The position numbers were made by a program, and so were the translations under genes. Below the pieces are notes generated by a model that ran no database searches, was not told the DNA's origin, and worked only from the letters and a program-made list of their open reading frames with translations. A stretch of 64,000 bases of DNA from Ornithinimicrobium sediminis (GTDB taxonomy: Bacteria; Actinomycetota; Actinomycetes; Actinomycetales; Dermatophilaceae). Where the stretch lies: the NCBI RefSeq assembly GCF_021272345.1, contig NZ_JAJSDQ010000001.1:806001-870000 (forward strand), written 5' to 3'. Below, one piece after another: positions 36,556 to 54,817 of the stretch (positions are counted from its first letter, which is position 1; each line of letters begins with the position of its first letter).

Positions 36556-38391
36556 ATGCATGCTGCAGGTGGCCACGCGTCGATGCGCGAGGCGGCCGTA
36601 CGCACGGGCTGGGCTCTCTCTGACGGCCTGTGGTGGGCTGGAGCAGTCCTCGTCTACGCGTGGGTGCGCTACTCCTACGACCTGAGCGAGTCGCTTAACC
36701 CCGACGTCATCGTGATTGCCGCCACAGCCCTTATCGGTCAGGTCTTCGTGGGGTGCGCACTTGGCCCCTACTTGGTCAACCATATCCGAGGCTCGTTCGA
36801 AGAGGTTGTCGCCGTCACCCGGGCCGCCTTGATCATGGCGCTGGGCCTGACCGCGTGGGTCGCCCTGGCCCATCCCTCCATGCAGGTCCCGCGCTCGCTG
36901 CCGGTCGTGGCGGGAGCCGTCGCCCTGATCGGCATGCTGGCCAGCCGCTTCGTCGTGCGGACCTGGCGCATCCAGCGAGCCGCCAGTCGGCCCACGAACG
37001 CGAAGGTCATCGTCTTCGGGGCAGGTGTGGCCGGCCGCCGCCTGGTGTACAACATGATCCACGACGACGAGTCGGCGTTCCGACCGGTCGCTCTCGTCGA
37101 CGACGACCGCAGCAAGCGCAAGCTGCGCGTCGAAGGAGTGCGGGTGGCAGGCACGCGCGAGGACATTCCCCGCGTCGCCGCCCGGACCGCCGCCACCCAC
37201 CTCATTGTCGCGCTGCCCAACGCCGACGCCGGGATGATGCGCGAGATGCGGGAAATCTCCGAGGTCGCCGGCCTGCAGCTCAAGGTGCTGCCGACGCTTA
37301 ACAACCTCTTCAGCGGCAACCCCCAGGTGCAGGACCTGCGCGACATCAACCTCGAGGACCTGCTCGGCCGGCGCGCCGTCGAGCTCGACCAGGGCGCCAT
37401 CGCCGACCAGGTCACCGGCAAGGTCGTGCTCGTGACCGGTGCCGGTGGGTCGATCGGCGCCGAGCTCTGCCGTCAGATCGCGCGGTTCCAGCCGGCTCGT
37501 CTTCTGCTCCTGGAGCGCGACGAGTCCGCGCTGCACAGCACTCAGCTCTCGCTCACCGGGCGAGGTCTGCTCGAGGGCGAGGACCTGCTGCTTGCCGACA
37601 TCCGCGATCGCGAGACGCTGAGGCGCCTTTTCCGGGACACGCGACCCGACGTCGTCTTCCACGCCGCCGCGCTCAAACACCTCTCGCTGCTGGAGAGGCA
37701 CCCACTCGAAGCCTGGCAGACCAACATCCTCGGGACGCTGAACGTCCTGACCGCCGCAGCGGAGAGCGGGGTGGGGGCATTCGTCAACATCTCGACCGAC
37801 AAGGCGGCCAACCCCACGTCGGTCCTCGGCTACTCCAAGCGCATCGCGGAGCGTCTCACCGCCCAATTCGCGTACACCGAACCCGGACGCTATGTGTCGG
37901 TGCGCTTCGGCAACGTGCTCGGCTCGCGCGGATCTGTCGTGCCGAGCTTCATGGAGCAGATCCGACGCGGTGGCCCGGTGACGGTGACCCACCCGGACGT
38001 CGAGCGCTACTTCATGCTCATCTCGGAAGCCTGCCAGCTCGTGCTGCAGGCGTCAGCCATGGGCAGCGACGGTGACGTCATGGTGCTCGACATGGGCCAG
38101 CCGGTGAGGATCGCCGACGTGGCACAGACCCTGATCGACCTGTCAGGGAGAACCGACGTGGACATCGTCTACACGGGTTTGAGGCCGGGCGAGAAGCTCA
38201 CCGAGGACCTCTTCACCGACAGCGAGGTGCACGAGGCCACGGGGCACGAGCTGCTCACCCGGGTGCAAGTCCCCGCCCTGCCGGAGGACGCGGTCTCAGG
38301 GCCCGTGTGGAGACACCCGGGCGACCTCGTCGACTGGATGCAGACAGAAGCAACGGCTGGCTTGACCTCACTCGTGCCACTCGAGGATTAA
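36556..38391 (+). CDS. membrane-bound UDP-sugar 4,6-dehydratase (CapD/PglF/FlaA1-like)
   Basis: A 611-residue protein. GAGGAG precedes ATG 36556. Four membrane helices occupy about residues 15-140. A first Rossmann domain (VIVFGAGVAGRRLVYNM) is followed by the SDR dehydratase domain from about 285: VLVTGAGGSIGAELCRQI, VFHAAALKHLSLLERHP, and NISTDKAANPTSVLGYSKR. In PglF-type enzymes the Tyr of YxxxK is Met; here that position is Leu, with Lys kept. It should convert UDP-GlcNAc to its 4-keto-6-deoxy form at the membrane, the first step to 4-amino-dideoxy sugars. The DegT aminotransferase at 53687 would act next. This gene opens the polysaccharide region. Confidence 0.88.
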   Translation: MHAAGGHASMREAAVRTGWALSDGLWWAGAVLVYAWVRYSYDLSESLNPDVIVIAATALIGQVFVGCALGPYLVNHIRGSFEEVVAVTRAALIMALGLTAWVALAHPSMQVPRSLPVVAGAVALIGMLASRFVVRTWRIQRAASRPTNAKVIVFGAGVAGRRLVYNMIHDDESAFRPVALVDDDRSKRKLRVEGVRVAGTREDIPRVAARTAATHLIVALPNADAGMMREMREISEVAGLQLKVLPTLNNLFSGNPQVQDLRDINLEDLLGRRAVELDQGAIADQVTGKVVLVTGAGGSIGAELCRQIARFQPARLLLLERDESALHSTQLSLTGRGLLEGEDLLLADIRDRETLRRLFRDTRPDVVFHAAALKHLSLLERHPLEAWQTNILGTLNVLTAAAESGVGAFVNISTDKAANPTSVLGYSKRIAERLTAQFAYTEPGRYVSVRFGNVLGSRGSVVPSFMEQIRRGGPVTVTHPDVERYFMLISEACQLVLQASAMGSDGDVMVLDMGQPVRIADVAQTLIDLSGRTDVDIVYTGLRPGEKLTEDLFTDSEVHEATGHELLTRVQVPALPEDAVSGPVWRHPGDLVDWMQTEATAGLTSLVPLED

Positions 38392-38475
38392 TTGTCGCTT
38401 CGGTTGGAGTCTGAGGTGATCAGGGTGGTGGATGTGAGCGGATTGACGTACCCCGGTCGGCGGTAGGGTCGGGTC

Positions 38476-39592
38476 GTGGTGTTCATCCGCAGGTCGGCTG
38501 GCCGTTGGGGCGCCACGAAGGTCCGGATCGCTGAGCGGCGCGGCGGACGTAGCCACATCCTGGAGCACGTAGGGACTGCGCGGTCCGAGGCTGAGCACGC
38601 GGTGGCCCGAGGCCCGTCGGCGGTTGCGGCCGGGGCAGGAGTCGCTGGGGTTGGAGGTCAACGGGTGCCGGAGCAGGCGCGCTTAGGGGTGATCACCGGG
38701 AAACGGTCCGCAAGTGGTGTGGCACGTGCTGAGCACCGTATACGCCCGGCTGGGGTCGAGGCCCTGGAAGATGCGGCGTTCGAGCTGCTGGTACTGGCCC
38801 CCGATCATCACGCCGACGAGCAAGGCCGACTCGGTCCGCGTGCTGACCGAGATCGGCGTCGCACATGCCTCGTTGCGCACCATGTTCCGGTCACTGCAGC
38901 GCGCAGCGACCGGTGACTACCGCGACCAGATCGCGACCGCATGCTTCACGCATGCCGGCAGCGGCGGAGACGTCTCGCTGTGCCTGTACGACGTGACCAC
39001 GCTGTACTTCGAGGCCGGGAACGAGGACGAGTTGCGCAAGGTCGGCTACTCCAAGGAACGCCGCGTCGAATCGCAGATCGTCGTGGGACTGCTGGTGAAC
39101 CGAGCCGGGTTCCCGCTTGAGATCGGTTGCTGGGAGGGCAACAAGTCCGAGACGGCCACGCTCATTTCGATCAAGGCGTTCCAGGCCCGGCACAACCTGG
39201 CCGACATGGTCGTGGTCGCCGACGCCGGGATGCTCTCTGCGTCCAACCTCAAGGAGCTGCACGAGGCCAGTCTTCGGTTCATCGTCGGCTCAAGGGTCAC
39301 CAAGGCGCGGCCCACGTGGCCTCGCACTTCCGGTGGCACGGAGAGGCGTTCACCGACGGGCAGGTCATCGACACCCTCACCCCACGGGTGGCCACCGACT
39401 GCGCCAGGAGCAGCAACGACACCAACGTCCGGACAGAACCGGCATGGGACCCCACGGTGCACGACCGGTCCTGGCGGCCGGTGTGGGCCTACTCCCGCAG
39501 ACGGTCCGTACGGGACGGCAAGACCACCACCCCCCGACGGCCACCATCACAACCCGCCGCACAAGCCCGATCAAAGATCGAGGTTAGTTAGT
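38476..39592 (+). pseudogene. degenerate IS1634/IS1549-like transposase
   Basis: Homologous coding sequence is spread over three frames. Frame one starts at GTG 38476 (FIRRSAGRWGATKVRI, the family opening). It shifts near 38,700-38,800 into a frame with SLCLYDVTTLYFEAGNEDEL (catalytic Asp region) and DMVVVADAGMLSASNLKELH (second Asp). It shifts again near 39,300 into HFRWHGEAFTDGQVIDTLTP. The usual C-terminal third is missing after the DRSWRPVWAYSRRRSVRDGKT segment. The element is dead and truncated; no inverted ends were recognised. Confidence 0.85.
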
Positions 39593-39673
39593 CGAGAAAT
39601 CGTACCGAGTTTGAGGAGTCCCCACAGGTCAGCGGTCTACGTCCGTGGCGGTCGGCGGAAGACTGAACAAACT

Positions 39674-41096
39674 GGCTCTTCACAATGCAGGGTGTAGTTG
39701 CGGCCTGAACCCTCCGGTCTCCAGGAGCGATCTGGCGATGTAGTTGGTGAGGTTGGTGAAGCCGAGGGCTGAGCCGCGTAGGTGCTCGAGGCGGCCGTTG
39801 ATGGCTTCGGTGGGTCCGTTGCTGGTGCCGGACCGGTCGAAGTAGGCCAGCACGTCGGCAGCTCGTCGGGTCAGGGTCCGCCCCAACGTGATGAGCTCGG
39901 TCAACGTGTCCGGCACGTCGTGGGCGACCGAGTCGATGAGGGTCTGCATCAGCTGCCGGCCCCGGGACCTGTCGGGCTCCCGGTAGGCGGTCACCATGGA
40001 TTGGTACACGCCCCAGGTCACCTCGACCTCGACGTGGACATCGACCGCGAACAGCCGGTCCAACCGGTGCTGCTGTTTGTCGGTGAGCAGGTCGGACCCG
40101 GTGTGCAATGTCCTGCGGGCCGAGTACAGCGGATCGCCCTTGTGACCACGATGCCCGCGGGTGGCCTGCTGGACACGGCGCCGGCACTCATCCAGGGCGT
40201 CCCCGGCCAGGCGGACCACATGGAACGGGTCGAGCACAGTGACCGCCTCGGGCAGTTCCTCGGTGGCCGCGGTCTTGAACCCGGAGAACCCGTCCATCGC
40301 CACCACCTGCACCCCCTCGCGCCAGGCCTGGTCGCGCTGCGCCAACCAGGCCTTGAACGCCTTCTTGGAGCGGCCTTCGACCATGTCCAACAGGCGGGCC
40401 GGGCCGGTGCCATCCCTGACGGGGGTGAGGTCGATGATCACGGTGACGTACTTGTCACCGCGCCGCGTGTGCCGCCACACGTGCTCGTCCACCCCGACCA
40501 CGGCCACGCCGTCCAGCCGGGTCGGGTCGGCGATCAGGACCCGTCGTCCCTCGGCCAGGACCGCGTCGTTAGCGGTGTTCCACGCCACGCCCAAGGCTTC
40601 GGCGACGCGGGCCATGGACAGGTGCTGGCAGACGATCCCGACCAGGCCCCACCGCAGGCCGGCGCGGGAGATCTTGGCCCGCGGCTGCGCCGCGGCGGTG
40701 GTGTCCTGGCGCCACACGTGCGAGCACTCGACACACCGGTAGCGGCGCACGGTGACCAGCAGCGTCGTGGGTCGCCACCCGAACGGCTCGTGCGCCAACG
40801 ACCTGGTCCCGTGTCCCGCGGGATGCCCTGGCAGCCGCACCGCCGGCACCAGTCATCCGGCTCCACAACCCGGCAGGCCAGCACGGCACGGTCGGGCTCG
40901 AGCCGTTGGCCCGTGACCTCCAGTCCGAGGTCGTCCAGACCGGTGAAGGTCGTCAGGTCAGGGCGCGTGAAGGTAGCGTCAGCCACGTCGAGGTCTTCCA
41001 GGTGGGCGGTGTGAGAACTCCCATCATCGGAAGACCTCGACACCTACCCAGCGACCGACGCGCTGACGACCTCTACACCCTCATCTGTGAAGAGCC
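39674..41096 (-). mobile_element. ISL3-family insertion sequence, complete ends
   Basis: A 1423-bp element. Terminal inverted repeats are GGCTCTTCACAATGCAGGG (from 39674) and, on the other strand, GGCTCTTCACAGATGAGGG (from 41096), both continuing with TGTAG. It is flanked by a perfect 8-bp duplication, AACAAACT, at 39666-39673 and 41097-41104, the size expected for ISL3. The transposase lies on the minus strand and is frameshifted. The intact ends and target duplication mean a recent insertion. Confidence 0.95.
39680..41043 (-). pseudogene. ISL3 family transposase, frameshifted
   Basis: About 454 codons from GTG 41043 to 39680 would make a normal-length ISL3 transposase. The N-terminal part has the zinc-finger-like VEPDDWCRRCGCQGIPRD. 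Near 40808-40811 one base appears to be missing, so RDTG jumps to the frame of RSLAHEPFGWRPTTLLVTVRR and CVECSHVW. The rest is intact: DGVAVVGVDEHVW (first Asp), VVAMDGFSGFKTA (second Asp), VLDPFHVVRLAGDAL, and TSNGPTEAINGRLEHLRG (Glu). A single-base error in the assembly or a programmed shift could restore it; otherwise the copy is inactive alone. Confidence 0.88.
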
Positions 41097-41104
41097 AACA
41101 AACT

Positions 41105-41314
41105 CAGGACGGCCCCGCGTCGGCGACATATCTCCTGCCGCCCTTTGTCATCCGCTTCCGGCCAGCCTCGCATATCGTACTAGCGAACGGTGCCTAGGCC
41201 GTCCCGTTTCTTGTCCCTGAACTCGCCTTTAGCGTCGCCTCCGGCATCAGCGGCTTCGCCTGGGCGAGGACAGCCACCCATCCTATCCTTTTTCGGCGTA
41301 TCCTTAGCATTCGC
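41105..41314. other. gene-free, AT-richer stretch
   Basis: No coding frame, repeat or recognisable element is seen between the ISL3 duplication and the end of the glycosyltransferase. Base composition is lower in GC than the flanking chromosome and shared with the next three kilobases, marking the start of a foreign-looking block. Confidence 0.5.
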
Positions 41315-42454
41315 TCAAGGGCCTCGATCGATCAATTCCAGGTAAACTTCAAGGGTCTGCTCGATCATCCGGTCGCTGGAGAATAACGTAGACGCACGTT
41401 CAGCTGCGGCAAGACCCATCATTCGTCGCTCCTCGGGGGCCATTGAGATAAATCGGCCTAGCGCCTCGCGCAGAGCCGGTACATCATCAACTGGGACAAG
41501 AATCCCTGTACGCTCCTCTTCCACCTGAACGGAGGCACCCTCAGTTCGGGTCCTGATCACAGGAATTCCCATCATCATCGCCTCGATAGTCACGAGTGGA
41601 AAACCCTCCCGACGACTGGCAAGAACCAGAGCATCCAGCGCCGCATAAATACGCCTGACATCGGACGTGAACGGGCTGTGCAGGACGAAACGACGTGCAT
41701 TGGGAGATAGCCGCTGCAATACGTCTTCCGCCTCCGCCGACGATCCCCCGACCATCAGTAGACGAACCGTGTCGGAGAGCAGTGGCTCCACCGCGTCGAG
41801 CAATAAGTCCAGGCCCTTGACATACGTTAACCGACCCACCTGCGCTATTGCTACAACCGAATCATCTACACCCAGGGCTGCACGTGCTTCCTGTCGCTCT
41901 CGCTTGGTTGCGGGAGCGAATAGCGCTTCGTCCACGCCGTTGAAGATCAAGCGGACGGCGTTCGGACGATAACCGTATGTAGTAACGAGTTCGTCGCGCA
42001 GCTCCTCACTTATGGCGATCGCCATGTGTGCGCGTCGATTGAGCGGGTGGCGCGGAATACCAGTGACGTGATGGGTCGCTACGGTGGGTGTTTTGGCAAG
42101 CCATCCGTATAGTTTCGCGATGAAGGACGTTACCGGATAGTGGACATGAATGACGTCTGGCCGACTCAGATGCAATGCAATAAGCGCGGGCGGCAGAGCG
42201 AGTAGGTATCCCCCAAGTTGCCGGACCTTTCCCCATCGCGTAAATGACGGCTCCAATGGGAATCTGACCCGGCGGTGTTGCACCCCGGACTTCGCAGAAT
42301 CTCGAAATAATTGGATGGCCGCTTCATCCAAGCCAGGGCCTGCAGAGAGAACCACCACTTCATGCCCTCTTCGGACCATCCCCTCCGCGAGGGCGTACAG
42401 GTGAACCGTCGACCCCTCGGCAGGCAGGAAGCGGGCAAGGTAGACGATCTTCAT
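41315..42454 (-). CDS. family 4 glycosyltransferase, lower-GC copy
   Basis: A 379-residue GT-B glycosyltransferase. N-terminal: MKIVYLARFLPAEGSTVHLY; interdomain VDVIHVHYPVTSF-like and THHVTGIPRHPLNRRAHM; donor site: QVGRLTYVKGLDLLLDAVEP, then LVLASRREGFPLVTIEAMMMG, containing the EGFPxxxxEAM motif of GT4. It transfers a nucleotide-activated sugar to a growing saccharide at the cytoplasmic membrane face. It is a clear paralogue of the protein at 47598 with matching motifs along the length, but its codon use is far less GC-rich, suggesting it came from elsewhere. It sits between IS remnants. Confidence 0.9.
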   Translation of the reverse strand: MKIVYLARFLPAEGSTVHLYALAEGMVRRGHEVVVLSAGPGLDEAAIQLFRDSAKSGVQHRRVRFPLEPSFTRWGKVRQLGGYLLALPPALIALHLSRPDVIHVHYPVTSFIAKLYGWLAKTPTVATHHVTGIPRHPLNRRAHMAIAISEELRDELVTTYGYRPNAVRLIFNGVDEALFAPATKRERQEARAALGVDDSVVAIAQVGRLTYVKGLDLLLDAVEPLLSDTVRLLMVGGSSAEAEDVLQRLSPNARRFVLHSPFTSDVRRIYAALDALVLASRREGFPLVTIEAMMMGIPVIRTRTEGASVQVEEERTGILVPVDDVPALREALGRFISMAPEERRMMGLAAAERASTLFSSDRMIEQTLEVYLELIDRGP

Positions 42455-42644
42455 GTGATATCCAGTCAGTCGACCAGGCCAGACGGTACCACCAGGGGCG
42501 GGACCCGACTAGGCTACCTCGGGACGGGCCACGATTGCTGTCCGGGCACGTCAAGTGAGAAGGACGATGCGGGTATCCTGGACGAGGTCGGCGTGCTCCT
42601 GATCGCTCGGGCGCACCCGCGCGTGCTCGGACAGCGCCCAGATC
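42455..42644. other. gene-free stretch before the IS3 remnant
   Basis: No open frame with family similarity and no promoter-like signal could be supported here; it may be further decayed IS3 sequence upstream of the recognisable part. Confidence 0.4.
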
Positions 42645-42868: not shown

Positions 42869-42924
42869 CATTTCGGGTCTCAGAGCAGATGGACATAGCG
42901 GGCCTGGCCAAGTAGCCTTCGCCC

Positions 42925-43680: not shown

Positions 43681-43798
43681 GCTGGAGTGACCACTCGCGT
43701 TACTGGTGTGGTTACACGGTGACACCACGACTCGCCACGCCGCACTCGGGTGGGCCAGGTGCGCGTACATATTGTGTCAGCATAGCTGAGACTAAACT
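43681..43798. other. short gene-free gap
   Basis: Nothing recognisable is seen between the membrane-protein stop and the ISL3-type terminal repeat that starts at 43799. Confidence 0.4.
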
Positions 43799-43880: not shown

Positions 43881-43883
43881 TCC

Positions 43884-44125: not shown

Positions 44126-44180
44126 CCACCGGGGTTACGTCGCCGAGCGGTGATGTCGAGGGCGTCGAGGATGCATTTGG

Positions 44181-44650: not shown

Positions 44651-46099
44651 TCACTGTTCGGCGACAGGTAGGCGACGTGTGCTTCGGCTGGCCTGTCGCG
44701 CGCGGTCGTGCCTCGCGCGGCGGTTCGGTGCCTCCTCCGTCTCCGGTCGGTACGTCTCGTACGAGTAGCTGTAGGAGTCCGGTCCGCTCACAGGAAGCCG
44801 GTTGAGGACGAGCCCCAAGATGTTGCCACCCACCTTCTCGAGACTGGCAAGTGCTCGCTGCAGCTGGTCGCGCTTCACCAGACCCGCGCCGACGACAAGG
44901 AGGGTGCCGTCGACCAGGGTCGACAACACCGCAGCGTCCGTGACCGGCAACAGGGGAGGAGCATCGACGATGACGAAGTCGTACTCCTTCTCCAGCCGCT
45001 CCAGAAGGCCCCGCATGGCGTCCGAACCCAGCATCTCGCTCGGGTTCGGGGGGATCGGGCCGCAGCCCAGGACCGACAAGCCGTTCCTGTAGGGCTGCAG
45101 CACATCCAGCAGGTCCGCCCGATCCACGAGCACGTCCGTCAGACCGGCCGCGTTCTCCAGACCGAGGTAGTCCAGGAGACGAGGCCGACGAAGATCGCCT
45201 TCGATGAGGCACACCGTCGCTCCCGCTTCGGCCAGGATGAGGGCTAGGTTGGCGGTCGTCGTGCTCTTCCCCTCTCCCGGTAACGTCGATGTGAGCACGA
45301 GGCTGCGCGGCTTCTTGTCGGCGTTGAGGAACTGCACGTTGGTACGAACGGTCCGGAAGGCTTCCGCCCGAGGCCCGTGGGAGTCGTGCGCCACGAGCGG
45401 GTGCCTCTCCGCATCGGCGTCGAAGGGGATGGCGCCCACCGTGGGAAGCTGGGTCACCCGGCCCACGTCTGCCTCAGCCCGGATGCGGGTGTTGAGGAGG
45501 TCTCGCACGACTGCCACCGCGAGACCTACCAGTGCCCCGAGGACCGCGCCCAAGGCAATATTCAGAGGCGGGTTCGGCGACGAGGGGGCCGCCGTGGTCG
45601 CCGGCTCCACGACCGTCACCTTCACAGGGCTCGGCCCCCCGTCAGCCAGACGCTCCAGCTCCTGCACAGACTCTGCGAACTCCGTCCCCACGCTGTCCGC
45701 CAGCTGCGCGGCTGCCGCAGGATCGTTGTCCGTCACCACGACGTCGATCAGGACCGTGTTCGGTGGGATACTGACGCTGATCCGCTCGCCCAGCTCCTGC
45801 GGACTTTCGTCAAGTCCCAGGTCGTCGATCACGGGACTGAGAACGATCGGCGCCGTGACGAGGTCGGCGTACGTAGCCACCTGCTGCTGCGTGAAAGAGC
45901 TTCCTTGCGCCACCTCGGAGATCGTCCCGCTGTTCGCGGTGGACACGAAGAACTGGGTCTGGCTGGAATACTCTCTGGGGGTCAGCAGTGTCACGACTGC
46001 GCTCACCGTCACGAACAGCAGGAAGATGGATACGATCAGGCGCCACTGGCGGACCCAGCTGCGCCACAGATCGGCGAATGTCACGTCGTTTCCCTTCAT
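44651..46099 (-). CDS. Wzz-type chain-length regulator fused to bacterial tyrosine kinase (Wzc-like)
   Basis: A 482-residue protein. Wzz domain: helix at about 20-40 and another at about 180-200 flank an extracytoplasmic part. The kinase follows: Walker A LPGEGKSTTTANLA (about 270), Walker A' VCLIEGDLRRPRL (about 295), Walker B FVIVDAPPLLP (about 375), and a C-terminal tyrosine cluster YSYSYETY (about 440) for autophosphorylation. It controls polymer length and export through cycles of phosphorylation. Its ATG overlaps the Wzy-like gene stop (ATGA). An IS fragment lies 10 bp after its stop, but the C-terminus appears intact. Confidence 0.93.
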   Translation of the reverse strand: MKGNDVTFADLWRSWVRQWRLIVSIFLLFVTVSAVVTLLTPREYSSQTQFFVSTANSGTISEVAQGSSFTQQQVATYADLVTAPIVLSPVIDDLGLDESPQELGERISVSIPPNTVLIDVVVTDNDPAAAAQLADSVGTEFAESVQELERLADGGPSPVKVTVVEPATTAAPSSPNPPLNIALGAVLGALVGLAVAVVRDLLNTRIRAEADVGRVTQLPTVGAIPFDADAERHPLVAHDSHGPRAEAFRTVRTNVQFLNADKKPRSLVLTSTLPGEGKSTTTANLALILAEAGATVCLIEGDLRRPRLLDYLGLENAAGLTDVLVDRADLLDVLQPYRNGLSVLGCGPIPPNPSEMLGSDAMRGLLERLEKEYDFVIVDAPPLLPVTDAAVLSTLVDGTLLVVGAGLVKRDQLQRALASLEKVGGNILGLVLNRLPVSGPDSYSYSYETYRPETEEAPNRRARHDRARQASRSTRRLPVAEQ

Positions 46100-47421
46100 G
46101 AGACATGCACGTTTTCAAGAGGTGCCGCCGGCAGTCTCCTCTGGCCCCCATGAACCACGAGGTCCTCGTCCACCGCGAGTCGGTCGTCATCCTGCGGGCC
46201 TCCGCTCCAGTCCGTCCGACTGACGAGGACAGGGAACGTCATCAGACACAGGGTCCAGATGAAGTCCACATACCCGATGGAGAGGAGGCTGATGCTCTCC
46301 ACGGTTCCCAGGGCCATCGCCCCCGCTCCCACGGCGACCAACGCTTGGCCCACGGCCCGCGGGGACGATGTATACGCCCTGGCCCAGATCCTAGCCACGA
46401 TCACCACGACGAGCACAGTCCCGACGATCCCCCAGTCCAGGACCTGGTCGAGCCAGAAGCTGTGGAACTGTCCCTGGGACATCCCGCTCTCTTCTGCCCT
46501 CGCGACGGCGTTGAAGAAACCGTAACCGAAGAGAGGTCGATCGGCGAAGAGTCCAAGGCCGATCGCCCAGATCTCGTCACGCCCGGTGAGTCCGACGTCG
46601 GGCCGCACGAAGAAGTGCAGGACGTAGGCACGCACGCTGGGTTGGAGCCACACAAGAACGACTCCGAGCAATGCTGTAGGCACCAGGAAGACCACCAGGA
46701 CCGCTAACCTCTTGAAAGCCAGGATGACACCCGCCACGATCAACATGGCCAGAATCGACCCGCGAGACATCGTCAGCGCGACCGAGACCACGAGGACGGC
46801 CCCCACCACGAGGTCACCCTTGCGGTGACCCCGCACTGCTCGGGTCACCAACAGCGCCCCGAATCCCAGGAAGAGCAACATTCCGAACTGGTTGCGGTTG
46901 GCCAGGAAAGAGCTGTAGCTCACGGCATAGCTCGATGTTCCGATACCCAGCCCAAAGAAGCTATCCAACCCCGTGAGAAGTCCGTACACAGCGACAATGG
47001 TCACAATGACCACGAACCCGCTGGTCAGCGTGCGTATCTGCCGGGGCGAAGGTCGCGTGTACTGGAACAGAGCCACGAGCACGAGGAAGTTGACAGGCTT
47101 GGCCACAACATTGACAAGGTCGCCCACGTGAAGCACGTCGCCGCGCACCACGTTCAGCCACACCGGCACGAGCTGCGCGCACGCGATCGTCAGGACCACG
47201 AGCACGGCCACCTGGCCCAGCGCATGCCATCTTCGGGCGTGGTACAGCGCCAGGATGACGGCCACACACGCCGACGCGAGGGGTATGCCCCACGCCAGGA
47301 TCGCCGGCTCGTCCAGCAGGTGAGCGCTCAGCAGCGGCACCAGCATGACCACGAGGGCGGAGAGCAGCACCACAGGCATGCCGGCCCGCGTCTCCGCTCG
47401 GCGCGGGCTCATGCTGGTCAT
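46096..47421 (-). CDS. Wzy/O-antigen ligase-like polymerase, first copy
   Basis: A 441-residue protein with about 11-12 membrane helices. The O-antigen-ligase region is in the second half: RNQFGMLLFLGFGALLVTRA, MSRGSILAMLIVAGVILAF, then the long external loop TGRDEIWAIGLGLFADRPLFGYGFFN and SGMSQGQFHSFWLDQVLDWG with conserved Gly and His, as in WaaL/Wzy. It should polymerise or ligate lipid-linked saccharide at the outer face. It is coupled to the tyrosine kinase by a 4-nt overlap. Confidence 0.87.
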   Translation of the reverse strand: MTSMSPRRAETRAGMPVVLLSALVVMLVPLLSAHLLDEPAILAWGIPLASACVAVILALYHARRWHALGQVAVLVVLTIACAQLVPVWLNVVRGDVLHVGDLVNVVAKPVNFLVLVALFQYTRPSPRQIRTLTSGFVVIVTIVAVYGLLTGLDSFFGLGIGTSSYAVSYSSFLANRNQFGMLLFLGFGALLVTRAVRGHRKGDLVVGAVLVVSVALTMSRGSILAMLIVAGVILAFKRLAVLVVFLVPTALLGVVLVWLQPSVRAYVLHFFVRPDVGLTGRDEIWAIGLGLFADRPLFGYGFFNAVARAEESGMSQGQFHSFWLDQVLDWGIVGTVLVVVIVARIWARAYTSSPRAVGQALVAVGAGAMALGTVESISLLSIGYVDFIWTLCLMTFPVLVSRTDWSGGPQDDDRLAVDEDLVVHGGQRRLPAAPLENVHVS

Positions 47422-47597: not shown

Positions 47598-48746
47598 ATG
47601 CGCATAGCATTCTCGGCGAGATATCTACCGGCCGAGGGCTCGACCATCCACATGTACACCCTCGCCTCAGGCTTGACGAGGGCCGGGCATGAGGTCCATC
47701 TTGTCTCGGCAGGCACGCCCCACGACAAGGCGGCAGAGGCGCTGTTGGCCCGGGCTCTCCAGAGTGGACTCATACATCACACCGTTCCTTTTCCCTTGTA
47801 CCCGAAATTCTCGGCGACAGGGAAAGCAGCGCAGCTGGCCTCGTACGCCCACGCCCTTCCCGTCGCACTCGGTGAGCTGTCGCAGATCGACCCCGACATC
47901 GTGCATGTCCACTACCCGGTCACGTCGTTCGTCGGCCGCATCCACCAGATCCGCTCCCCGACCCCCGTCGTGGTGACCCACCATGCCACGGGCATCCCCC
48001 GTCATCCGCTGAGCCGACGTGGGGACATGGCCATCGCCATCAGCGAAGATCTGCGTATCGAGCTGACGACCCGGCACGGGTACGACCCCAGCCGTGTGCG
48101 CACTGTCCTCAACGGTGTCGACGAGGCGGTGTTCGGCCCGCCCACCCAGCAGGAGAGGACCTCCCAGCGGGCCCAGCTCGGGGTCGATGAGGATGTCGTC
48201 CTGCTGGGGTTCATGGGGCGGCTGACATCTGCCAAAGGGATGGATGTCCTGCTGGACGCGGTGCGGCCCTACCTGGGACCGCACGTCCGGCTACTGGTCG
48301 CGGGGCAGCCGGCCACCGGCAAGGGAGCCGTCAGCGTGCCACACGCTATGCGTCGATGGGTGATCGAGATGCCGTTCCAGCAGGACCCGCGACCGCTCTA
48401 CGCGGCACTGGATCTGCTGGTTCATCCGAGTCGGTTCGAGGGATTCCCTCTCGTGCCGCTCGAGGCCATGATGATGGGCACACCGGTGATCCGGTCCCGG
48501 ACAGGAGGAGCGCAGGTCCAGGTGCTGGACGGCCTGAACGGCTACATCGTGCCCGTCGGCAGCTCCCACGCCCTGGCAGCCGCGCTCGAGAAGTTCTTGG
48601 GGCTCTCGCCCGCGGAACGGCAGTCGATGGGCGCGTCCGCCGCGGACCATGCCATCAGCCACTTCTCCAGCACCGCGATGGTCCGTCGCACGCTGGACGT
48701 CTACGACGAGGCCCGCTCCGTGCGTGGCCGCGCGAAGACGAGGTAG
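47598..48746 (+). CDS. family 4 glycosyltransferase
   Basis: A 382-residue GT-B enzyme; GGAG precedes ATG 47598. Motifs: ARYLPAEGSTIHMYTLASGL, DIVHVHYPVTSFVGRIH, THHATGIPRHPLSRRGDMAI, FMGRLTSAKGMDVLLDAVRP and the donor-binding RFEGFPLVPLEAMMMGTPVI. It adds a sugar to the lipid-linked repeat unit. It is paralogous to the enzyme at 41315 but has normal high-GC codon use. Its 3' end overlaps the flippase gene on the other strand by 46 nt. Confidence 0.9.
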   Translation: MRIAFSARYLPAEGSTIHMYTLASGLTRAGHEVHLVSAGTPHDKAAEALLARALQSGLIHHTVPFPLYPKFSATGKAAQLASYAHALPVALGELSQIDPDIVHVHYPVTSFVGRIHQIRSPTPVVVTHHATGIPRHPLSRRGDMAIAISEDLRIELTTRHGYDPSRVRTVLNGVDEAVFGPPTQQERTSQRAQLGVDEDVVLLGFMGRLTSAKGMDVLLDAVRPYLGPHVRLLVAGQPATGKGAVSVPHAMRRWVIEMPFQQDPRPLYAALDLLVHPSRFEGFPLVPLEAMMMGTPVIRSRTGGAQVQVLDGLNGYIVPVGSSHALAAALEKFLGLSPAERQSMGASAADHAISHFSSTAMVRRTLDVYDEARSVRGRAKTR

Positions 48747-49918
48747 AAACCGAGCAGGACGAGGTGCGCCGCCACGGTCGCCCACGCGAAGCCGTGCAGT
48801 CCGACGCGAAGGCTCAGCCCCACTGCGGCGCCCACGAAGACGCCGGCATAAAGGATGTTTGCCATCAGCGCTATGCCGCTGGGCCGGAACCTCAGCACAT
48901 ATGGCTGCATCAGGTAGGCAGCGGACGCCAGGCCCACCGAGATGCTCACCGGAAGCACGATGGGTCGCCCTTCCTCAGCGAACTGCGGGTAGAGAACCTG
49001 AAGTCCCAGCAGTCCGATGGCCAAGCTCGCGAGGGTGAGGACGATGATCACCCAGGGGAGCACCCGGTACAGTCGCTCAAGGATCTCACCACCACGCTCG
49101 TCGCCCATCGCGCCGAACTTGGCCAGCAGGAGGCCTGTGACAGGGTTGACCACAAGGGCCAGGCTCTTGGGGAGCACGCTGGCGGCGTAGTACACGGCCA
49201 GCGCGCCTGCACCCAGCAGAGGGTAGATGATCAGTCTGTCCAGATATCCGACCGCGTTGGCCAGCAGACCCACGGAGGCGAGTGACAGGTACTTGGTGGA
49301 CGTCCTGTAGAGGCGACGCCGGTCCTCGACACCGAAGTGCAACCGCCGACCGCCGGCAAGCAGGGCGACAGACAGCACGAGGACAGCGCACGCCTCCCCC
49401 ACCAGGAACGGCGCCAGCACCCAGTCGAAGCGCGCCACCAGGAGCAGCGCGCTCGCGCTGCCCGCTGCGTAGCAGAGATGCGCCACCAGCACGGTCCCGA
49501 ATCGTTGTTCGTACCGGAAAGGAGCGGCGAGGAAGAGACGCAGGGCAGTGAGGACGGAGATGACCGCGAAGAGGACGATCTCGTCACTGCTCACGTTCAG
49601 GACAGGCGCCACCACCACCCACGCCGCAGCCAACACCGCCAGCACCGGGACGAGCAGCAGGTGGAAGTCCCACGCGGCTCCCTCCCTCGCGTACTGGTGC
49701 CCCCGGACCAGCGCCGTGTTCGCCGCCTCGCCCCCTGTGACATTCGCAACGATGGCGGAGATCGTGACGAACAGGATGATCTTCGAGAAGTCGTCGGTGT
49801 TGGTCATCGCTGCGAGAAAGGGCAGGAGCAGGACCTGCTGGACCCCGACGATGGCACCGAACGCGCTCGTCGTGAGCGCGAGGTCGCGAAAGTGTGGGCT
49901 GCGCAGGCGACTCACCAT
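48701..49918 (-). CDS. polysaccharide flippase (Wzx-like, MOP superfamily), first copy
   Basis: A 405-residue protein with about 12 membrane helices. ATG 49918 is preferred because AAAGGGGGTGA precedes it; a GTG start 51 nt upstream is also open. The pattern FRDLALTTSAFGAIVGVQQVLLLPFLAAM, then YLSLASVGLLANAVGYLDRL and YYAASVLPKSLALVVNPVTGLLLAKFG is typical of Wzx-type lipid-linked saccharide translocases. It moves repeat units across the cytoplasmic membrane for the Wzy-like enzyme. The downstream end overlaps the convergent glycosyltransferase. Confidence 0.85.
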   Translation of the reverse strand: MVSRLRSPHFRDLALTTSAFGAIVGVQQVLLLPFLAAMTNTDDFSKIILFVTISAIVANVTGGEAANTALVRGHQYAREGAAWDFHLLLVPVLAVLAAAWVVVAPVLNVSSDEIVLFAVISVLTALRLFLAAPFRYEQRFGTVLVAHLCYAAGSASALLLVARFDWVLAPFLVGEACAVLVLSVALLAGGRRLHFGVEDRRRLYRTSTKYLSLASVGLLANAVGYLDRLIIYPLLGAGALAVYYAASVLPKSLALVVNPVTGLLLAKFGAMGDERGGEILERLYRVLPWVIIVLTLASLAIGLLGLQVLYPQFAEEGRPIVLPVSISVGLASAAYLMQPYVLRFRPSGIALMANILYAGVFVGAAVGLSLRVGLHGFAWATVAAHLVLLGFYLVFARPRTERASS

Positions 49919-49972
49919 GGAGCGTTCACCCCCTTTGGAAGCCACGCCGTCGCCGCGTGCCCCCGGCACCTC

Positions 49973-51214
49973 TCATGACGGTCCCAGCAGGCTCAGGACG
50001 AGTTCGACGACCCGTGGATAGGTGCGGCTACGGTCGAAGTGGTCCTCGGCCATTCGACGGTTGTTGGCGCCCATCTCCTCACGCAGCCGGGGGTTGTCGG
50101 CCAGCAGACACAGATGCCGTGCGAGATCCTTCGCATCTCCCGGGACACAGTTGACTCCGGCTTCGTACTCCGCGACCAACCTCCGGTACTCCACGTTGTC
50201 CTGCGTGTTCAGCACCGGCAGTGCTGCAGCGGCATAGTCGCCGACCTTGTTGATCACGCTCTGCGCGGCGCCGGGACGGATGGGGTTCACGGCCACGTGG
50301 CATCCCCCCAGGCGAGCGACCATGTCCGCGTACGGAAGACGCCCGACGAAGTCGGCGGCCACGCCACAGTCCTCGGCGTGCTGTTGGAAGCGCGACGTCA
50401 GCGGCCCATCCCCCATGACCACCAGACGAAACCGTCGCGCCGTCTTCTGTGTCGCCTCAGCGATGGCATCACACACCAGTGGCAGGTCGTAGCTGTGACC
50501 GAGCGTCCCGACATACGCGATCCGGATCTCGTCGGACGAGCTCGCGACGTCAGCGGCTCGGCTCCCCTGACGTAGCTCGTCGAACTTCGCGAGATCCGTG
50601 CCGAGGTAGACGACGTGAGCCGACCGTGATCCCGTCCGGACGGCGTCGGCGCGTCGAGCGTAGGTCTCGGACACTGCAACCACCGCGTCAGCCGCACGGT
50701 AGACGCGGTTCGCCGTCCTCGACAGGGGATGCATGAGAGGCCGCGTGACCGCCGGTGCCGGCGAGAGCAGCTCGAAGGCCTCGGGCCACAGGTCCTGCAC
50801 ATCGACGACGAGGGGGATGCGCTTCTCACCGGCGAACCTCGCTGCCACGTCGGCCACTGCCAGCGATGGCACGGCGCAGTAGATCAGGTCAGGGGTCTGG
50901 CGGGCGTGGAGGAACCTGCGCAGATGGCGCGCCATCAGTCGATGGCTGACCAGCCGCTTCAGCCCGACATTCCTGGTGTAGCCCGGCTCGCGGATCAGCG
51001 TGCGACGGAAACCGTGGTCACCGTACGGCCATGTCCGCTGCTCCTTCCGTGCATGTGAGAAGCTGGACGTGACCAGCTCTACATCCAAGCCACGCGCCAC
51101 TATCCGACCAGCCAGGTCGCTGAAGCGATCGTTCGAGCTGCTGTCGTCGGCGCTGAAATGGGCTATGAGCAGGACGTCAGGGGACGGGTCACCCACGCGC
51201 GGAGTGGAAGACAT
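49973..51214 (-). CDS. family 4 glycosyltransferase (WbuB-like)
   Basis: A 413-residue GT-B enzyme. N-terminal DVLLIAHFSADDSSSNDRFSDLA, acceptor-side VVDVQDLWPEAFELL (the QDLWPE motif of WbuB/WbpH-like transferases), and donor side RIAYVGTLGHSYDLPLVCDA followed by ADFVGRLPYADMVARLGGCHVAVNP and SVINKVGDYAAAALPVL. It adds a sugar to the lipid-linked unit. ATG 51214 is chosen over an adjacent GTG six bases upstream. It precedes the flippase gene on the same strand by 55 nt. Confidence 0.88.
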   Translation of the reverse strand: MSSTPRVGDPSPDVLLIAHFSADDSSSNDRFSDLAGRIVARGLDVELVTSSFSHARKEQRTWPYGDHGFRRTLIREPGYTRNVGLKRLVSHRLMARHLRRFLHARQTPDLIYCAVPSLAVADVAARFAGEKRIPLVVDVQDLWPEAFELLSPAPAVTRPLMHPLSRTANRVYRAADAVVAVSETYARRADAVRTGSRSAHVVYLGTDLAKFDELRQGSRAADVASSSDEIRIAYVGTLGHSYDLPLVCDAIAEATQKTARRFRLVVMGDGPLTSRFQQHAEDCGVAADFVGRLPYADMVARLGGCHVAVNPIRPGAAQSVINKVGDYAAAALPVLNTQDNVEYRRLVAEYEAGVNCVPGDAKDLARHLCLLADNPRLREEMGANNRRMAEDHFDRSRTYPRVVELVLSLLGPS

Positions 51215-51388
51215 GTGCACTCAACTTCCGTCTGGTCGGACCGTGCCCCGGTCCGTCACGGCGACCATCGGACACTCACGGTCGTTACGCCCCACCCAGC
51301 GTCATCGAGGCCCGAGCGCGGCCTGCGCCAGTGTACGTCAGGTATCACGGCCGAGGTCGCCGGACTTGGTAGGATCTGAGCCCGAGAG

Positions 51389-51410
51389 GACCCGGTCATG
51401 CCGGGTCTTT
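51389..51410 (+). terminator. small hairpin with T-run ahead of the ATP-grasp gene
   Basis: GACCCGG pairs with CCGGGTC around a 5-base loop and is followed by TTT, 20 bp before the ATP-grasp start. TAGGAT at 51370-51375 is a possible -10 just upstream, so the hairpin would lie in the first bases of the transcript: either an attenuator or a 5' stabilising stem. Confidence 0.45.
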
Positions 51411-51429
51411 GCCGTCTGTGAGGAGTCCG

Positions 51430-52377
51430 ATGGGTTCTGTGTGCTTCCTACTCACGTCGGTCGGGCGCCGAGTCGAGCTGGTCCGGCACTTCCTGTCCTA
51501 CGCCGAAGAACACCCCGGCAGGCTTCGAGTCCTCGGCACCGAGATCGACCCGCACGCACCTGCCGCCCAGCTCCTGGGCGACCACGTGCGGCTCGTTCCA
51601 CGCAGTGACGAGGCCGGCTACGGGTCCAGCCTGCAACAGGTCTGCGAGGTCGAGGGTGTCGACGCTGTCTTTCCGCTCATCGACCCCGACGTGTCGGCCC
51701 TGGCCGGCACGGACCTGCCCGTGGGGGGTCTACGCGACCGGGAGGTGGCCGCGGTCGTCTCGGACAAGTGGTCGACCTACGAGTGGCTCAGAGGACGGGG
51801 CATTCCCACCGTGTCGACGTGGCTCCCCGGACAGCGCCGGCACGACTCCTTCCCCGTCTTCATGAAACCCCGAAAAGGAAGCGGTGGGGAGGATGCGTTC
51901 CAGGTCCGAGATCCGGACGAGTACGCGTTCTTCAGTCGCTACATCACCGCTCCGGTGGCGCAGGAGCTCCTGCCCGGCCCGGAGCTCACTGTCGACGTGG
52001 TCGTCGGCCGAGATCGGGAGGTGCTGGCCCTCGCTCAACGCGAACGTCTTGCCGTCAGGGGCGGAGAGGTCAGCCGTGGGCGGCTCGTCCACGCGGACGA
52101 AGTCGAGCGGGTGGTGCGCCACGTCGTCACCGAGCTGCGGCCCGGGGGGCCTATCACGGTTCAGGGCATGTACGACCGACACGGCACGTTCCGCGTGACT
52201 GAGATCAACGCCAGGATGGGGGGAGGGCTCCCTCTGGCGATCGCCGCCGGGGTGCCGCTCGCCCGTCTCCTCGTCGAGAGCTGGGCGGGTGAGCGGCCTC
52301 GAGAGGTTCGTAACAGCGATCTGTCGATCGGCCTGCACATGGCGCGATTCGACGATGCGTTCTACTGGCACCCATGA
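51430..52377 (+). CDS. ATP-grasp ligase of the polysaccharide locus
   Basis: A 315-residue protein; GAGGAG precedes ATG 51430. The fold resembles carbamoyl-phosphate-synthase-like ATP-grasp enzymes: preATP-grasp domain CFLLTSVGRRVELVRHFLSY and GTEIDPHAPAAQLLGD; ATP-binding lysine loop FPVFMKPRKGSGGEDAF; then QELLPGPELTVDVVVGRD; and the metal site TEINARMGGGLPLAI. Such enzymes form amide or peptide-like bonds between a carboxylate and an amine. It overlaps the HAD gene by 4 nt (ATGA). Context suggests it acylates an amino sugar, like the ATP-grasp domain of neisserial PglB2; this is inference. Confidence 0.85.
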   Translation: MGSVCFLLTSVGRRVELVRHFLSYAEEHPGRLRVLGTEIDPHAPAAQLLGDHVRLVPRSDEAGYGSSLQQVCEVEGVDAVFPLIDPDVSALAGTDLPVGGLRDREVAAVVSDKWSTYEWLRGRGIPTVSTWLPGQRRHDSFPVFMKPRKGSGGEDAFQVRDPDEYAFFSRYITAPVAQELLPGPELTVDVVVGRDREVLALAQRERLAVRGGEVSRGRLVHADEVERVVRHVVTELRPGGPITVQGMYDRHGTFRVTEINARMGGGLPLAIAAGVPLARLLVESWAGERPREVRNSDLSIGLHMARFDDAFYWHP

Positions 52378-53069
52378 CCGTGGCACGCAGCGCAGCTCTC
52401 CTGCTGGACCTAGACGACACCTTGTTCGTCGAGCGTGACTACGTCAGGAGTGGCTACTCGTCCGTCAGCTCATGGCTGGGTGAACAGCTGGGAGTGCCTC
52501 CCCGAGTGCTCATGGCTTCGCTGACGGAGATCTTCGACTCACCTACCCGCGGTCGGGCCTTCGACACGCTCCTGGCTGAGTACGGCCGGAAGGACCTGGT
52601 CGACGAGAGCGTCCGACGCTATCGGCATCACAAGCCGGACATCGAGCTCACACCTGAAGCCGAAGAGCTTCTGGCGACGCTACCGAGCGGCCTACCCCGG
52701 GGCATCGTCACCGACGGACCGACGGTCATGCAGGCCGGCAAGGTCGAGGCCCTCGGTCTGCATCAACGCGTCCCCGTCATCGTGCTCACCGACCGGCTCG
52801 GCGGGAGAGACGCCTGGAAGCCGTCGCCCGTCGGTCTCCTCGATGCCGCCCGACGCCTCGGAGTCGTCGCCGACCAGTGCGTCTACGTGGGCGACAACCC
52901 GCACAAGGACTTCCACGCGGCCCGTGCGGCGGGCATGGCCTCCATCCGGTACCGGGCAGGCTTCCAGGTCCATCGGGACTGCGAGGCCGAGTCGTCGTAC
53001 CAGCCGGATACGGAGATCACGTCTCTACTGGACCTCCCGGCCTGGGTCGACCTGCCGCCGACCGGCTGA
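52374..53069 (+). CDS. HAD family phosphatase
   Basis: A 231-residue protein. HAD motif I LLLDLDDTLF gives nucleophile Asp12 and acid/base Asp14; motif II is around GIVTDGP; motif III Lys lies in AWKPSPVGL; motif IV is VYVGDNPHKDFHAA. The helical cap between residues 20 and 85 makes it a subfamily I enzyme. It likely removes phosphate from a small molecule, perhaps the acid that the coupled ATP-grasp enzyme uses. Its end overlaps the convergent sugar-transferase gene by 45 nt. Confidence 0.88.
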   Translation: MTVARSAALLLDLDDTLFVERDYVRSGYSSVSSWLGEQLGVPPRVLMASLTEIFDSPTRGRAFDTLLAEYGRKDLVDESVRRYRHHKPDIELTPEAEELLATLPSGLPRGIVTDGPTVMQAGKVEALGLHQRVPVIVLTDRLGGRDAWKPSPVGLLDAARRLGVVADQCVYVGDNPHKDFHAARAAGMASIRYRAGFQVHRDCEAESSYQPDTEITSLLDLPAWVDLPPTG

Positions 53070-53690
53070 GCGGTCCAGCGGCTCACTCTCATGCCCGGAG
53101 CCACGGAACTCGGGCATCGTGGGGTGACCCTCCGCCGAGATCCCCTGTCGCCGGACAGTGTTGACGACGGTCCTCGCCAGGATCTGCAGGTCCATGGCGA
53201 AGGTGGCTGACTCGACATACACCGCATCGAGCTCGAGCCTCGACTCCCACGAGAGTGCGTTGCGCCCGCTGACCTGGGCAAGTCCTGTGATTCCTGGCCT
53301 GACATCGTGACGGCGTGCCTGTCTCTCGGAGTAGCGGTCCAGGTAGCGCGGGAGCAGCGGCCTCGGACCCACGAGAGACATGTCGCCCACGAGCACGTTC
53401 CACAGCGTGGGCAGCTCGTCGACGCTCGTCGTCCTGAGGGCTCGGCCCACCAGGGTCATGCGTTCCGCATCACGGTCCGACCCCACAGAAGGGTCGGCGA
53501 GCCGCATCGTCCGGAACTTGACCAGCTCGAACGGCCGGCCATGAAGCCCGGGACGTTCTTGTCTGAACAGCACCGGTGAGCCCATGGTCACGCGAACCGC
53601 TACCGCCGCGGCTGCCTGCACCGGAAGAGACGCGACCAGGAGTGGGGCGGCGATCGCAACGTCCAGAACCCGCTTGCCTCGGTAGCTCAC
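53025..53690 (-). CDS. initiating phosphoglycosyltransferase (PglC/WcaJ-like)
   Basis: A 221-residue protein, the short PglC-like form. GTG 53690 overlaps the aminotransferase stop (GTGA). It has one hydrophobic membrane re-entrant helix (VLDVAIAAPLLVASLPVQAA), the ELVKFRTMR motif, and the catalytic segment TTSVDELPTLWNVLVGDMSLVGPRPLLP with the Asp-Glu pair. It transfers a sugar-phosphate, in this family often a di-N-acetylbacillosamine-type sugar, from its UDP form onto undecaprenyl phosphate, beginning repeat-unit assembly on the inner face of the membrane. Confidence 0.92.
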   Translation of the reverse strand: MSYRGKRVLDVAIAAPLLVASLPVQAAAAVAVRVTMGSPVLFRQERPGLHGRPFELVKFRTMRLADPSVGSDRDAERMTLVGRALRTTSVDELPTLWNVLVGDMSLVGPRPLLPRYLDRYSERQARRHDVRPGITGLAQVSGRNALSWESRLELDAVYVESATFAMDLQILARTVVNTVRRQGISAEGHPTMPEFRGSGHESEPLDRSAGRRQVDPGREVQ

Positions 53691-54817
53691 GTCGCGAGGA
53701 CCTCGACCACGGCAGCGATGACGTAGTCGACCTCCGAGTCCGTGAGCGCAGAGCCACTCGGCAAGGCAGCACCTCTCCTGAAGAGCCCCTCGCTCTGTCT
53801 CGCACCGAACGTGCGCGCACCGGCCATCGAGGGCTGCATATGCATGGGTTTCCACAGGTGTCTCGCCTCGATACCGCGGCGGGTGAGCTCGCTCAGGACG
53901 TGTGTGACGTCCGCCTCGTCGTCCTCGACGACCAGCGCCGTCAACCAGCAGTTGTCCGAAGCATCTGAGCGGCCGGTGTCTGCTCCGAGGAACCTCACGG
54001 GCAGATCCCCCAGAGCCTGGACGTAGCGTCTCCGGATCTCCCTCCTCCGTTCCATCATGGCGTCGAGTCTCGTGAGCTGGGCTCTTCCCAGTGCTGCCAG
54101 GAGGTTGGACATCCTGTAGTTGAACCCGATTTCCCTGTGCTCGTACCAGGCGGCAGGCTCCCGGGCCTGCGTCGAGAGCTTGCGCGCGTGGGCGACGAGG
54201 CCACTGTCGTTGCTGAGGAGCATCCCTCCGCCCGAGGTGGTCATGATCTTGTTGCCGTTGAACGACAGGGCGGCGGCGCGACCAAACGCACCGGCTGCGA
54301 CGCCGTGGAACGACGCGCCCAGGGCCTCGGCCGCGTCCTCGAGGAGGGGCACCTCCCGTTCCTCGAGTGCGGGGACGATGGCGTCGTAGTCACAGGCTCG
54401 GCCGAAGAGGTCGACCGTCATCACCCCCGCCACGTCTCTACCCTCAGCTCTCAGCGTGTCGACTGCTTCGACCAGCCGGTGAGGATCGACGTTGCCGTCC
54501 CCGGGCTGGCTGTCCACGAAGACTGGTTCGGCTCCCGAGTAGACCACGGCGTTCGCTGACGCAGCGAAGGTCATCGACGGCAGCACCACGACCTTGCCGG
54601 GACCTGCGCCCAGCTCGAGGAGAGCCAGATGCAGGGCTGCAGTGCCGGAGGCAAGGGCCAGCGCATGCTTCACACCCACACGCTCCGCGATCTCGGCCTC
54701 GAACTCGTCGACATCAGGGCCGAGCGGCGCTATCCAGCCCGACCTCAGCGCGTTGAGGACATACTCCTCCTCCACCGCAGTGACATCAGCCTTGGATAGG
54801 TAGATCGTCCCGCCCAT
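53687..54817 (-). CDS. DegT/DnrJ/EryC1 (PglE-like) sugar aminotransferase
   Basis: A 376-residue PLP enzyme. ATG 54817 has GGGAGG 7 nt upstream. IYLSKADVTAVEEEYVLNAL, ALASGTAALHLALLELG, DVAGVMTVDLFGRACDYDAI, PLLEDAAEALGASFHG, and the PLP-lysine segment SFNGNKIMTTSGGGML are diagnostic. It transaminates a UDP-4-keto-6-deoxy sugar to the 4-amino sugar. The dehydratase at 36556 should supply the keto sugar, and the phosphoglycosyltransferase encoded immediately downstream should use the product. No PglD-type acetyltransferase is visible in the window. Confidence 0.92.
   Translation of the reverse strand: MGGTIYLSKADVTAVEEEYVLNALRSGWIAPLGPDVDEFEAEIAERVGVKHALALASGTAALHLALLELGAGPGKVVVLPSMTFAASANAVVYSGAEPVFVDSQPGDGNVDPHRLVEAVDTLRAEGRDVAGVMTVDLFGRACDYDAIVPALEEREVPLLEDAAEALGASFHGVAAGAFGRAAALSFNGNKIMTTSGGGMLLSNDSGLVAHARKLSTQAREPAAWYEHREIGFNYRMSNLLAALGRAQLTRLDAMMERRREIRRRYVQALGDLPVRFLGADTGRSDASDNCWLTALVVEDDEADVTHVLSELTRRGIEARHLWKPMHMQPSMAGARTFGARQSEGLFRRGAALPSGSALTDSEVDYVIAAVVEVLAT

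Follow-up and report, generated by a model that had tools for sequence, protein, structure and literature searches.

Candidate genes for a 4-acylamino first sugar other than diacetylbacillosamine: a stand-alone ATP-grasp ligase and a HAD phosphatase in a surface-polysaccharide locus of Ornithinimicrobium sediminis

In the diacetylbacillosamine pathway (PglF, PglE, PglD and PglC in Campylobacter; PglD, PglC and PglB in Neisseria) the dehydratase, aminotransferase and phosphoglycosyl transferase steps are known from their enzyme families, and PglD acylates the newly made amine with acetyl-CoA. Here we examine a stretch of 64,000 nucleotides from Ornithinimicrobium sediminis (hereafter the window; positions 806001-870000 of contig NZ_JAJSDQ010000001.1, part of a 3.53 Mb genome in 16 contigs, 70% G+C) which shares relatives of PglF, PglE and PglC with that pathway, but differs from it in carrying an ATP-grasp and a HAD gene and no PglD domain that we could find. 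We consider it likely, though well short of certain, that the locus is of the Wzx/Wzy surface-polysaccharide type and that the sugar laid down first is a 4-acylamino sugar distinct from diacetylbacillosamine, made by way of an ATP-grasp amide and the HAD enzyme; this first sugar probably carries an acid other than the usual acetyl.

The described system that invites comparison is Neisseria PglB2, presented as an ATP grasp/phosphoglycosyl transferase responsible for the sugar GATDH, which arrived as a pglB2-ORF8 fragment (PMC11130364). For its C-terminal domain a glycerol-type transfer is termed 'proposed' in an account that also reports GATDH in N. oralis and names, in the legend of its figure on pgl organisation, a HAD hydrolase and a formyl transferase of that species (PMC6959607); a split pglB2 was reported to be still functional (PMC4569582). 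In the portions of this literature that we surveyed, glycerate is the published precedent for the acid. Likened by description and not by sequence, the window resembles the PglB2/GATDH system in its dehydratase, aminotransferase, PglC-type transferase, ATP-grasp and lack of PglD, which is the gene content of the GATDH type, and in its HAD gene, a HAD hydrolase gene being named for the pgl loci of the GATDH producer N. oralis (PMC6959607). The differences are that the ATP-grasp is fused to the transferase in Neisseria and is a separate gene in the window, and that PglB2 belongs to protein glycosylation whereas a polysaccharide locus is likely here. The 'ATP-grasp amino acyl ligase' CA_C2189, which sits in a modified-sugar operon with a HAD domain elsewhere in that operon, is again comparable by description only, and its operon differs in having a NeuB-like synthase and an acyl carrier protein (PMC4000134).

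By sequence, the window PglC is 50% identical over 194 amino acids to the transferase domain of N. gonorrhoeae PglB, and the window PglF is 42% identical over 407 amino acids to the dehydratase frame of the N. gonorrhoeae pgl stretch. Applied to that stretch as a positive control, the family profiles used here recovered a PglC-PglD fusion, PglE and PglF, and neither ATP-grasp nor HAD. The plasmid record NZ_CP119140.1, as a side observation, is a 2.17 Mb N. gonorrhoeae chromosome filed as a plasmid.

A sequence-only reading of the window had noted a PglF-like dehydratase, a PglE-like aminotransferase, a PglC-like transferase, a stand-alone ATP-grasp enzyme and a coupled HAD enzyme, and all five stand as intact open frames with the expected domains (Table 1). 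The ATP-grasp and HAD genes overlap by 4 bp, as do PglE and PglC, and the two pairs face each other, with HAD and PglC converging over 45 bp; both the coupling and the convergence described earlier thus hold. Residues on which enzymes of these kinds depend are intact in PglC (D91-E92), PglE (SFNGNK), the ATP-grasp (K113, K146, E258, N260, R262) and HAD (D12, D14, K149, D174). The best NCBIfam model for PglE was TIGR04181 (LegC aminotransferase), at 323.7 bits and below its cut-off of 420.

The gene set recurs in other genomes, where simple scripts called the genes and each family profile rested on 3 to 10 sequences. The survey of co-occurrence that the sequence-only reading had proposed recovered all five genes together in five other actinobacterial genomes (L025, L060, L061, L062 and L063), in several orders. 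In L061 they lie on one strand as PglF-PglE-ATP-grasp-HAD-pyruvyl transferase-PglC; in the congener G119 (L025) PglC, PglE and PglF form one contiguous block towards which the ATP-grasp and HAD converge, with identities to the window proteins of 58, 46, 55, 69 and 67%. Within the family 6 of 186 genomes had ATP-grasp matches at E <= 1e-10, and within the order 29 of 396, most of the matches being about 30% identical. Ten further loci (L027-L030, L064-L069) had no HAD, PglC or PglF of the module at a useful score, L065 showing weak PglE and PglF matches only. The ATP-grasp paralogues of L064 and L066 were seen by eye to stand among response-regulator-like, PHP-like and glycosyltransferase-like genes.

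Scanning named genomes with an alignment of six ATP-grasps yielded at least 517 confirmed stretches, and among the best 80 of these a HAD gene lies within 400 bp of the ATP-grasp at 64 loci. HAD, PglC and PglE occur together (the latter two within 6 kb) at 33 of the 80, spread over seven named phyla (Bacillota 23, Planctomycetota 3, Chloroflexota 2, one each in Actinomycetota, Atribacterota, Bacteroidota and Cyanobacteriota, and one unassigned), and seven loci have none of the three. If, more strictly, HAD is required to lie downstream on the same strand and no more than 300 bp away, the pairing holds at 61 of 79 loci, and at 37 of the 42 with at least 6 kb of flank on both sides. Within a second phylum, 18 of 395 genomes match the ATP-grasp at E <= 1e-45, with HAD in the short locus at 12 of 19 places. 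Annotated plasmid records place the aminotransferase, sugar transferase, ATP-grasp and HAD together in Priestia filamentosa, and the ATP-grasp-HAD pair within polysaccharide regions in Roseibium and Ensifer; in Segatella copri HAD lies two genes further along. Given this comparison across genomes, the link among the genes is firmer than neighbourhood alone, on which the combination had rested.

Genes are inserted in a few loci (FemAB-like, methyltransferase-like, glycosyltransferases and others), and no constant acid-making neighbour was seen in the 11 loci inspected. A FemAB/GNAT-like gene lies near the module in L079, L102 and L144, between HAD and PglE in the first two, and formyl transferase genes lie near ATP-grasp and HAD in L135 (4526-5422, by Pfam) and L153 (8023-8934, annotated as methionyl-tRNA formyltransferase).

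Gene fusions, all confirmed by Pfam, tie the ATP-grasp to its partners: it is joined to PglC in L106 and L214, to PglE in L082, to HAD in L138 and to PglD in L229. Through its fusions to PglC, PglE and HAD the ATP-grasp is put in one short pathway with amine formation, loading and the phosphatase step. No PglC-ATP-grasp fusion was present among the 19 places of the second phylum, and in the plasmid records searched with the L106 fusion no one-frame fusion could be read, the three records covering at least 80% of it each doing so in two pieces.

In a quickly built tree of 121 ATP-grasps under a simple model, the window protein groups with those of L025, L060 and L070, the last from Agrococcus baldri (support 92). 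The smallest starred set around it contains 17 rows, 15 of them with HAD, and nine paralogues of the same order and family that have other neighbours form a starred group of their own. The HAD label changes 17 times on this tree against a shuffled mean of 34.8, and none of 500 shuffles was as low. The clustering with an unrelated ligase family that would have spoken against the sequence-only reading was not seen: the window ATP-grasp grouped with ATP-grasps linked to pgl genes and stood separate from the paralogues in different contexts. The ATP-grasps of L061 and L062 were placed among Bacillota proteins, a sign of transfer.

HAD-IA phosphatases carry a DxD nucleophile motif and the Lys and Asp of motifs III/IV, and in the HAD protein of the window all of these are invariant across 40 relatives (20 invariant columns, including D12, D14, K149 and D174), as are Y83, R84 and P88 of a Y-R-x-H-x-P stretch, with H86 nearly so. 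Its predicted fold (predicted local distance difference test, pLDDT, 95.0) has as closest solved structure the human N-acylneuraminate-9-phosphatase (NANP) 2w4m. This likeness, together with weak matches to many HAD-IA NCBIfam models (none over cut-off among the phosphatase equivalogs listed), would fit an enzyme that is not tied to the acid, being a general sugar- or nucleotide-phosphate phosphatase or one similar to NANP. We regard this as rather unlikely, for 64 of 80 loci keep HAD near the ATP-grasp, loci that lack PglC and PglE included, and the two are fused in L138. A search from the HAD side points the same way: 8 of 396 actinobacterial genomes (own included) matched at E <= 1e-38, and seven of the eight loci hold an ATP-grasp, one at about 0.7 kb distance, the exception being L254. 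Because the ATP-grasp-HAD pair is kept without PglC and PglE nearby, a role of HAD towards the acid is more probable than one towards the sugar.

The ATP-grasp is predicted to fold with high confidence (mean pLDDT 94.0, predicted template modelling score, pTM, 0.92), and a Foldseek structure search returned 2pn1 at the top, followed by the L-amino-acid ligases 4wd3 (RizA) and 3vot (BL00235), with PylC at rank 12. PylC and the L-amino-acid ligases form amide or peptide bonds; they share the ATP-grasp fold and a PylC-like N-terminal domain with the window protein, and differ from it in identity (about 16-18%) and in their substrates. Whole-length similarity extends to 2pn1 (E 1.6e-29) and to the 'carbamoyl phosphate synthase-like' proteins of PRK12767, but under the NCBIfam cut-off (NF009405, 183.7 bits against 390), and the models give no function. 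An ordinary carbamoyl phosphate synthase or carboxylase was dismissed on gene context. The alignment of 67 relatives contains 26 invariant columns (among them G12, R14, K113, K146, E185, R204, R206, E213, E258, N260 and R262). All 67 match PF15632, the best Pfam hit of the window protein, whose name suggests a Ter link, and the pair could on this account belong to a Ter-linked biosynthetic system, for which we take Ter-type, phosphoribosyltransferase (PRTase) and lyase partners to be the hallmarks. We judge this most improbable: PF21360 and PF02655 also match 67 of 67, the partners are sugar enzymes, and neither a Ter-type gene nor another partner of that kind was present among the part of the window genes that was scanned.

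The absence of PglD from the window, claimed earlier, extends to the locus and, by search for the PglD_N domain, to the genome: PF17836 gave no match there and was positive in 8 of 14 control genomes, and TIGR03570 (PglD) gave none over cut-off and nine weaker matches. A 200-amino-acid hexapeptide protein on contig 13, identified by eye, adjoins DegT-like and oxidoreductase-like genes (L024) and looks like part of another diamino-sugar set. A PglD hidden elsewhere in the genome was rejected as an explanation on the placement of this candidate and the PF17836 result, the remaining hexapeptide matches not being individually identified.

Whether ATP-grasp and PglD exclude each other was counted around the best 40 PglC-profile matches from 396 actinobacterial genomes (own genome excluded), chosen without regard to ATP-grasp. 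Within 1.5 kb, 13 neighbourhoods have ATP-grasp only, 11 PglD only, none both and 16 neither, and the counts are identical at 6 kb (hypergeometric P 0.0056 for zero overlap), with 10 hexapeptide proteins from these 40 loci serving as seeds for the PglD profile and with six of the stretches shorter than 6.5 kb at contig ends. In the set chosen by ATP-grasp, a clear PglC is present at 45 of 80 loci; within 1.5 kb of it, 36 have ATP-grasp only, 1 both and 8 neither, and within 6 kb the figures are 41, 3 and 1.

Our best reading is that the ATP-grasp acts usually instead of PglD, turning the 4-amino group that PglE installs into an amide, and a number of observations weigh against it. Only three of the 13 ATP-grasp-type PglC neighbourhoods (L184, L211, L214) also have HAD; ten do not, most of them in a subgroup distant from the window protein, so that the lack of overlap speaks chiefly to other branches. 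Eight of the 13 form one HAD-less subgroup in the tree, and one (L220) was counted on a 40-bit match. The 16 neighbourhoods with neither gene count on the same side. In the congener G119 the HAD match is split over two frames (L025 4011-4720), by a frameshift or an assembly error. Biotin carboxylases and PurK also rank high in the structure search, and the fold alone is therefore insufficient to call an amide ligase of this type. At 19 of the 80 loci, ten of them from planctomycetes, ATP-grasp and HAD occur without PglC or PglE nearby, as would be expected if the ATP-grasp amidated the carboxyl of another sugar (e.g. a uronic acid) and not the PglE amine; the fusions with PglE and PglC and the recurring five-gene set make this very unlikely, and no UDP-glucose dehydrogenase was seen among the window genes in a general scan, no search being aimed at it. 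PglD, finally, stands beside ATP-grasp in L073 (within 1.5 kb), in L071 and L135 (within 6 kb) and in L101, and in L229 the two form one fused protein near HAD, PglE and PglF.

As some loci hold both, strict replacement of PglD is argued against, and the L229 fusion implies that the two can also act together. The ATP-grasp might accordingly work atop or beside PglD, placing an amino acid on the C4 amine ahead of a PglD-like or formyl cap, or serving a further sugar within the repeat unit; in the present genome a cap, if there is one, would have to come from elsewhere. The L229 fusion, PglD in L071, L073 and L135, the formyl transferase genes of L135 and L153 and the L-amino-acid ligases among the nearest folds are in its favour; with the genome lacking PglD_N and none of the 40 PglC neighbourhoods holding both, we find it unlikely here. 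The earlier proposal that the ATP-grasp takes the place of PglD stands on recurrence, fusions and the lack of overlap in those 40 neighbourhoods, and does not stand as a strict replacement, a few relatives having both. Eight actinobacterial ATP-grasps adjoin PglC with no HAD or PglE nearby (L195, L199, L204, L208, L209, L210, L215, L218), the starts inspected in that group reading CAGQR or GVGKR instead of SxGRR, and perhaps serve another acyl or sugar. The fusion of ATP-grasp with a PglD-type acetyltransferase, in a locus with HAD, PglE and PglF, lies at L244 8381-10030 (also L229).

Under the replacement that we favour, PglF would convert UDP-GlcNAc to a 4-keto-6-deoxy sugar and PglE would add an amino group to C4, both by the established chemistry of their families. 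The ATP-grasp, judging from genome context and fusions, would turn a carboxylic acid into its acyl phosphate and couple this to the C4 amine, and PglC, following its family and its PglB relative, would load the sugar phosphate on undecaprenyl phosphate. HAD may act on the phosphate of the acid, either freeing the acid beforehand (e.g. phosphoglycerate to glycerate) or trimming a phospho-acid after ligation. Candidate acids are hydroxy acids such as glycerate, or amino acids, possibly acetylated or formylated further in some relatives; the formyl transferase and PglD genes of some loci would fit an amino acid there.

The surroundings of the module are listed in Table 1. An ISL3 transposase and an adjoining frame without Pfam match (38714-40798) separate PglF from the rest. 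The four genes at 51-55 kb have a third-position G+C of 0.79-0.82, PglF one of 0.87 and a flanking gene one of 0.95, a pattern as in an exchanged polysaccharide locus. A second polysaccharide set, at 56053-63299, comprises a GDP-mannose dehydratase, a GDP-fucose synthase, a GT11-type transferase, a Wzz-like frame and a Wzy-like protein.

Table 1. Genes of the putative amide-sugar module and its polysaccharide surroundings, in window coordinates
Feature	Position	Strand	Matches and remarks
PglF-like membrane UDP-sugar 4,6-dehydratase, 611 aa	36556..38391	+	PF02719 E 1.6e-102, PF13727 E 1.3e-11
ISL3 transposase	39680..40798	-	located between PglF and the other module genes
GT4-type glycosyltransferase	41315..42454	-	PF13692, PF00534
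Wzz/tyrosine-kinase-like chain-length protein	44651..46099	-	PF02706, PF13614, PF10609
Wzy-like polymerase/ligase (Wzy_C)	46096..47421	-	PF04932 E 4.4e-14
GT4-type glycosyltransferase	47598..48746	+	PF13692, PF00534
Multi-spanning membrane protein, probable Wzx-type flippase (from sequence and place)	48701..49918	-	no Pfam/PHROG match
GT4-type glycosyltransferase	49973..51196	-	PF00534, PF13439
Stand-alone ATP-grasp ligase, 315 aa, ATG at 51430; proposed N-acyl ligase of 4-amino sugar	51430..52377	+	PF15632 3.4e-16, PF21360 1.7e-14, PF02655 2.7e-13
HAD-IA phosphatase, 231 aa	52374..53069	+	PF13419 E 2.9e-18
PglC-like small phosphoglycosyl transferase, 221 aa, GTG at 53690	53025..53690	-	PF02397 E 6.6e-58
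PglE-like (LegC-family-like) DegT aminotransferase, 378 aa, ATG at 54823	53687..54823	-	PF01041 E 6.7e-93

We found no description of the ATP-grasp/HAD pair among the papers listed in the open-access literature surveyed, most subscription journals being outside its scope, and within that literature the chemistry has so far been tied to Neisseria PglB2, for which the window would offer stand-alone, testable enzymes. A wider and tentative view, possible though we lean against it, is that ATP-grasp and HAD form a mobile, pan-bacterial cassette that N-acylates 4-amino sugars as they are made, with PglB2 as just one fused offshoot, and that the cassette couples a phosphorylated central metabolite (3-phosphoglycerate, phosphoserine) to the sugar, HAD stripping the phosphate before or after ligation; if so, the sugars that initiate bacterial surface polymers would include a large class of amides that has gone unseen. 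The acyl group of the first sugar fixes what downstream transferases, the flippase, and host or phage receptors see. Should the proposed pathway be true, the acetyl step of the bacillosamine pathway would be one ending among several that can be swapped, and amide-linked sugars beyond the reach of annotation would be the products of many loci now labelled 'carbamoyl phosphate synthase-like' plus 'HAD hydrolase'.

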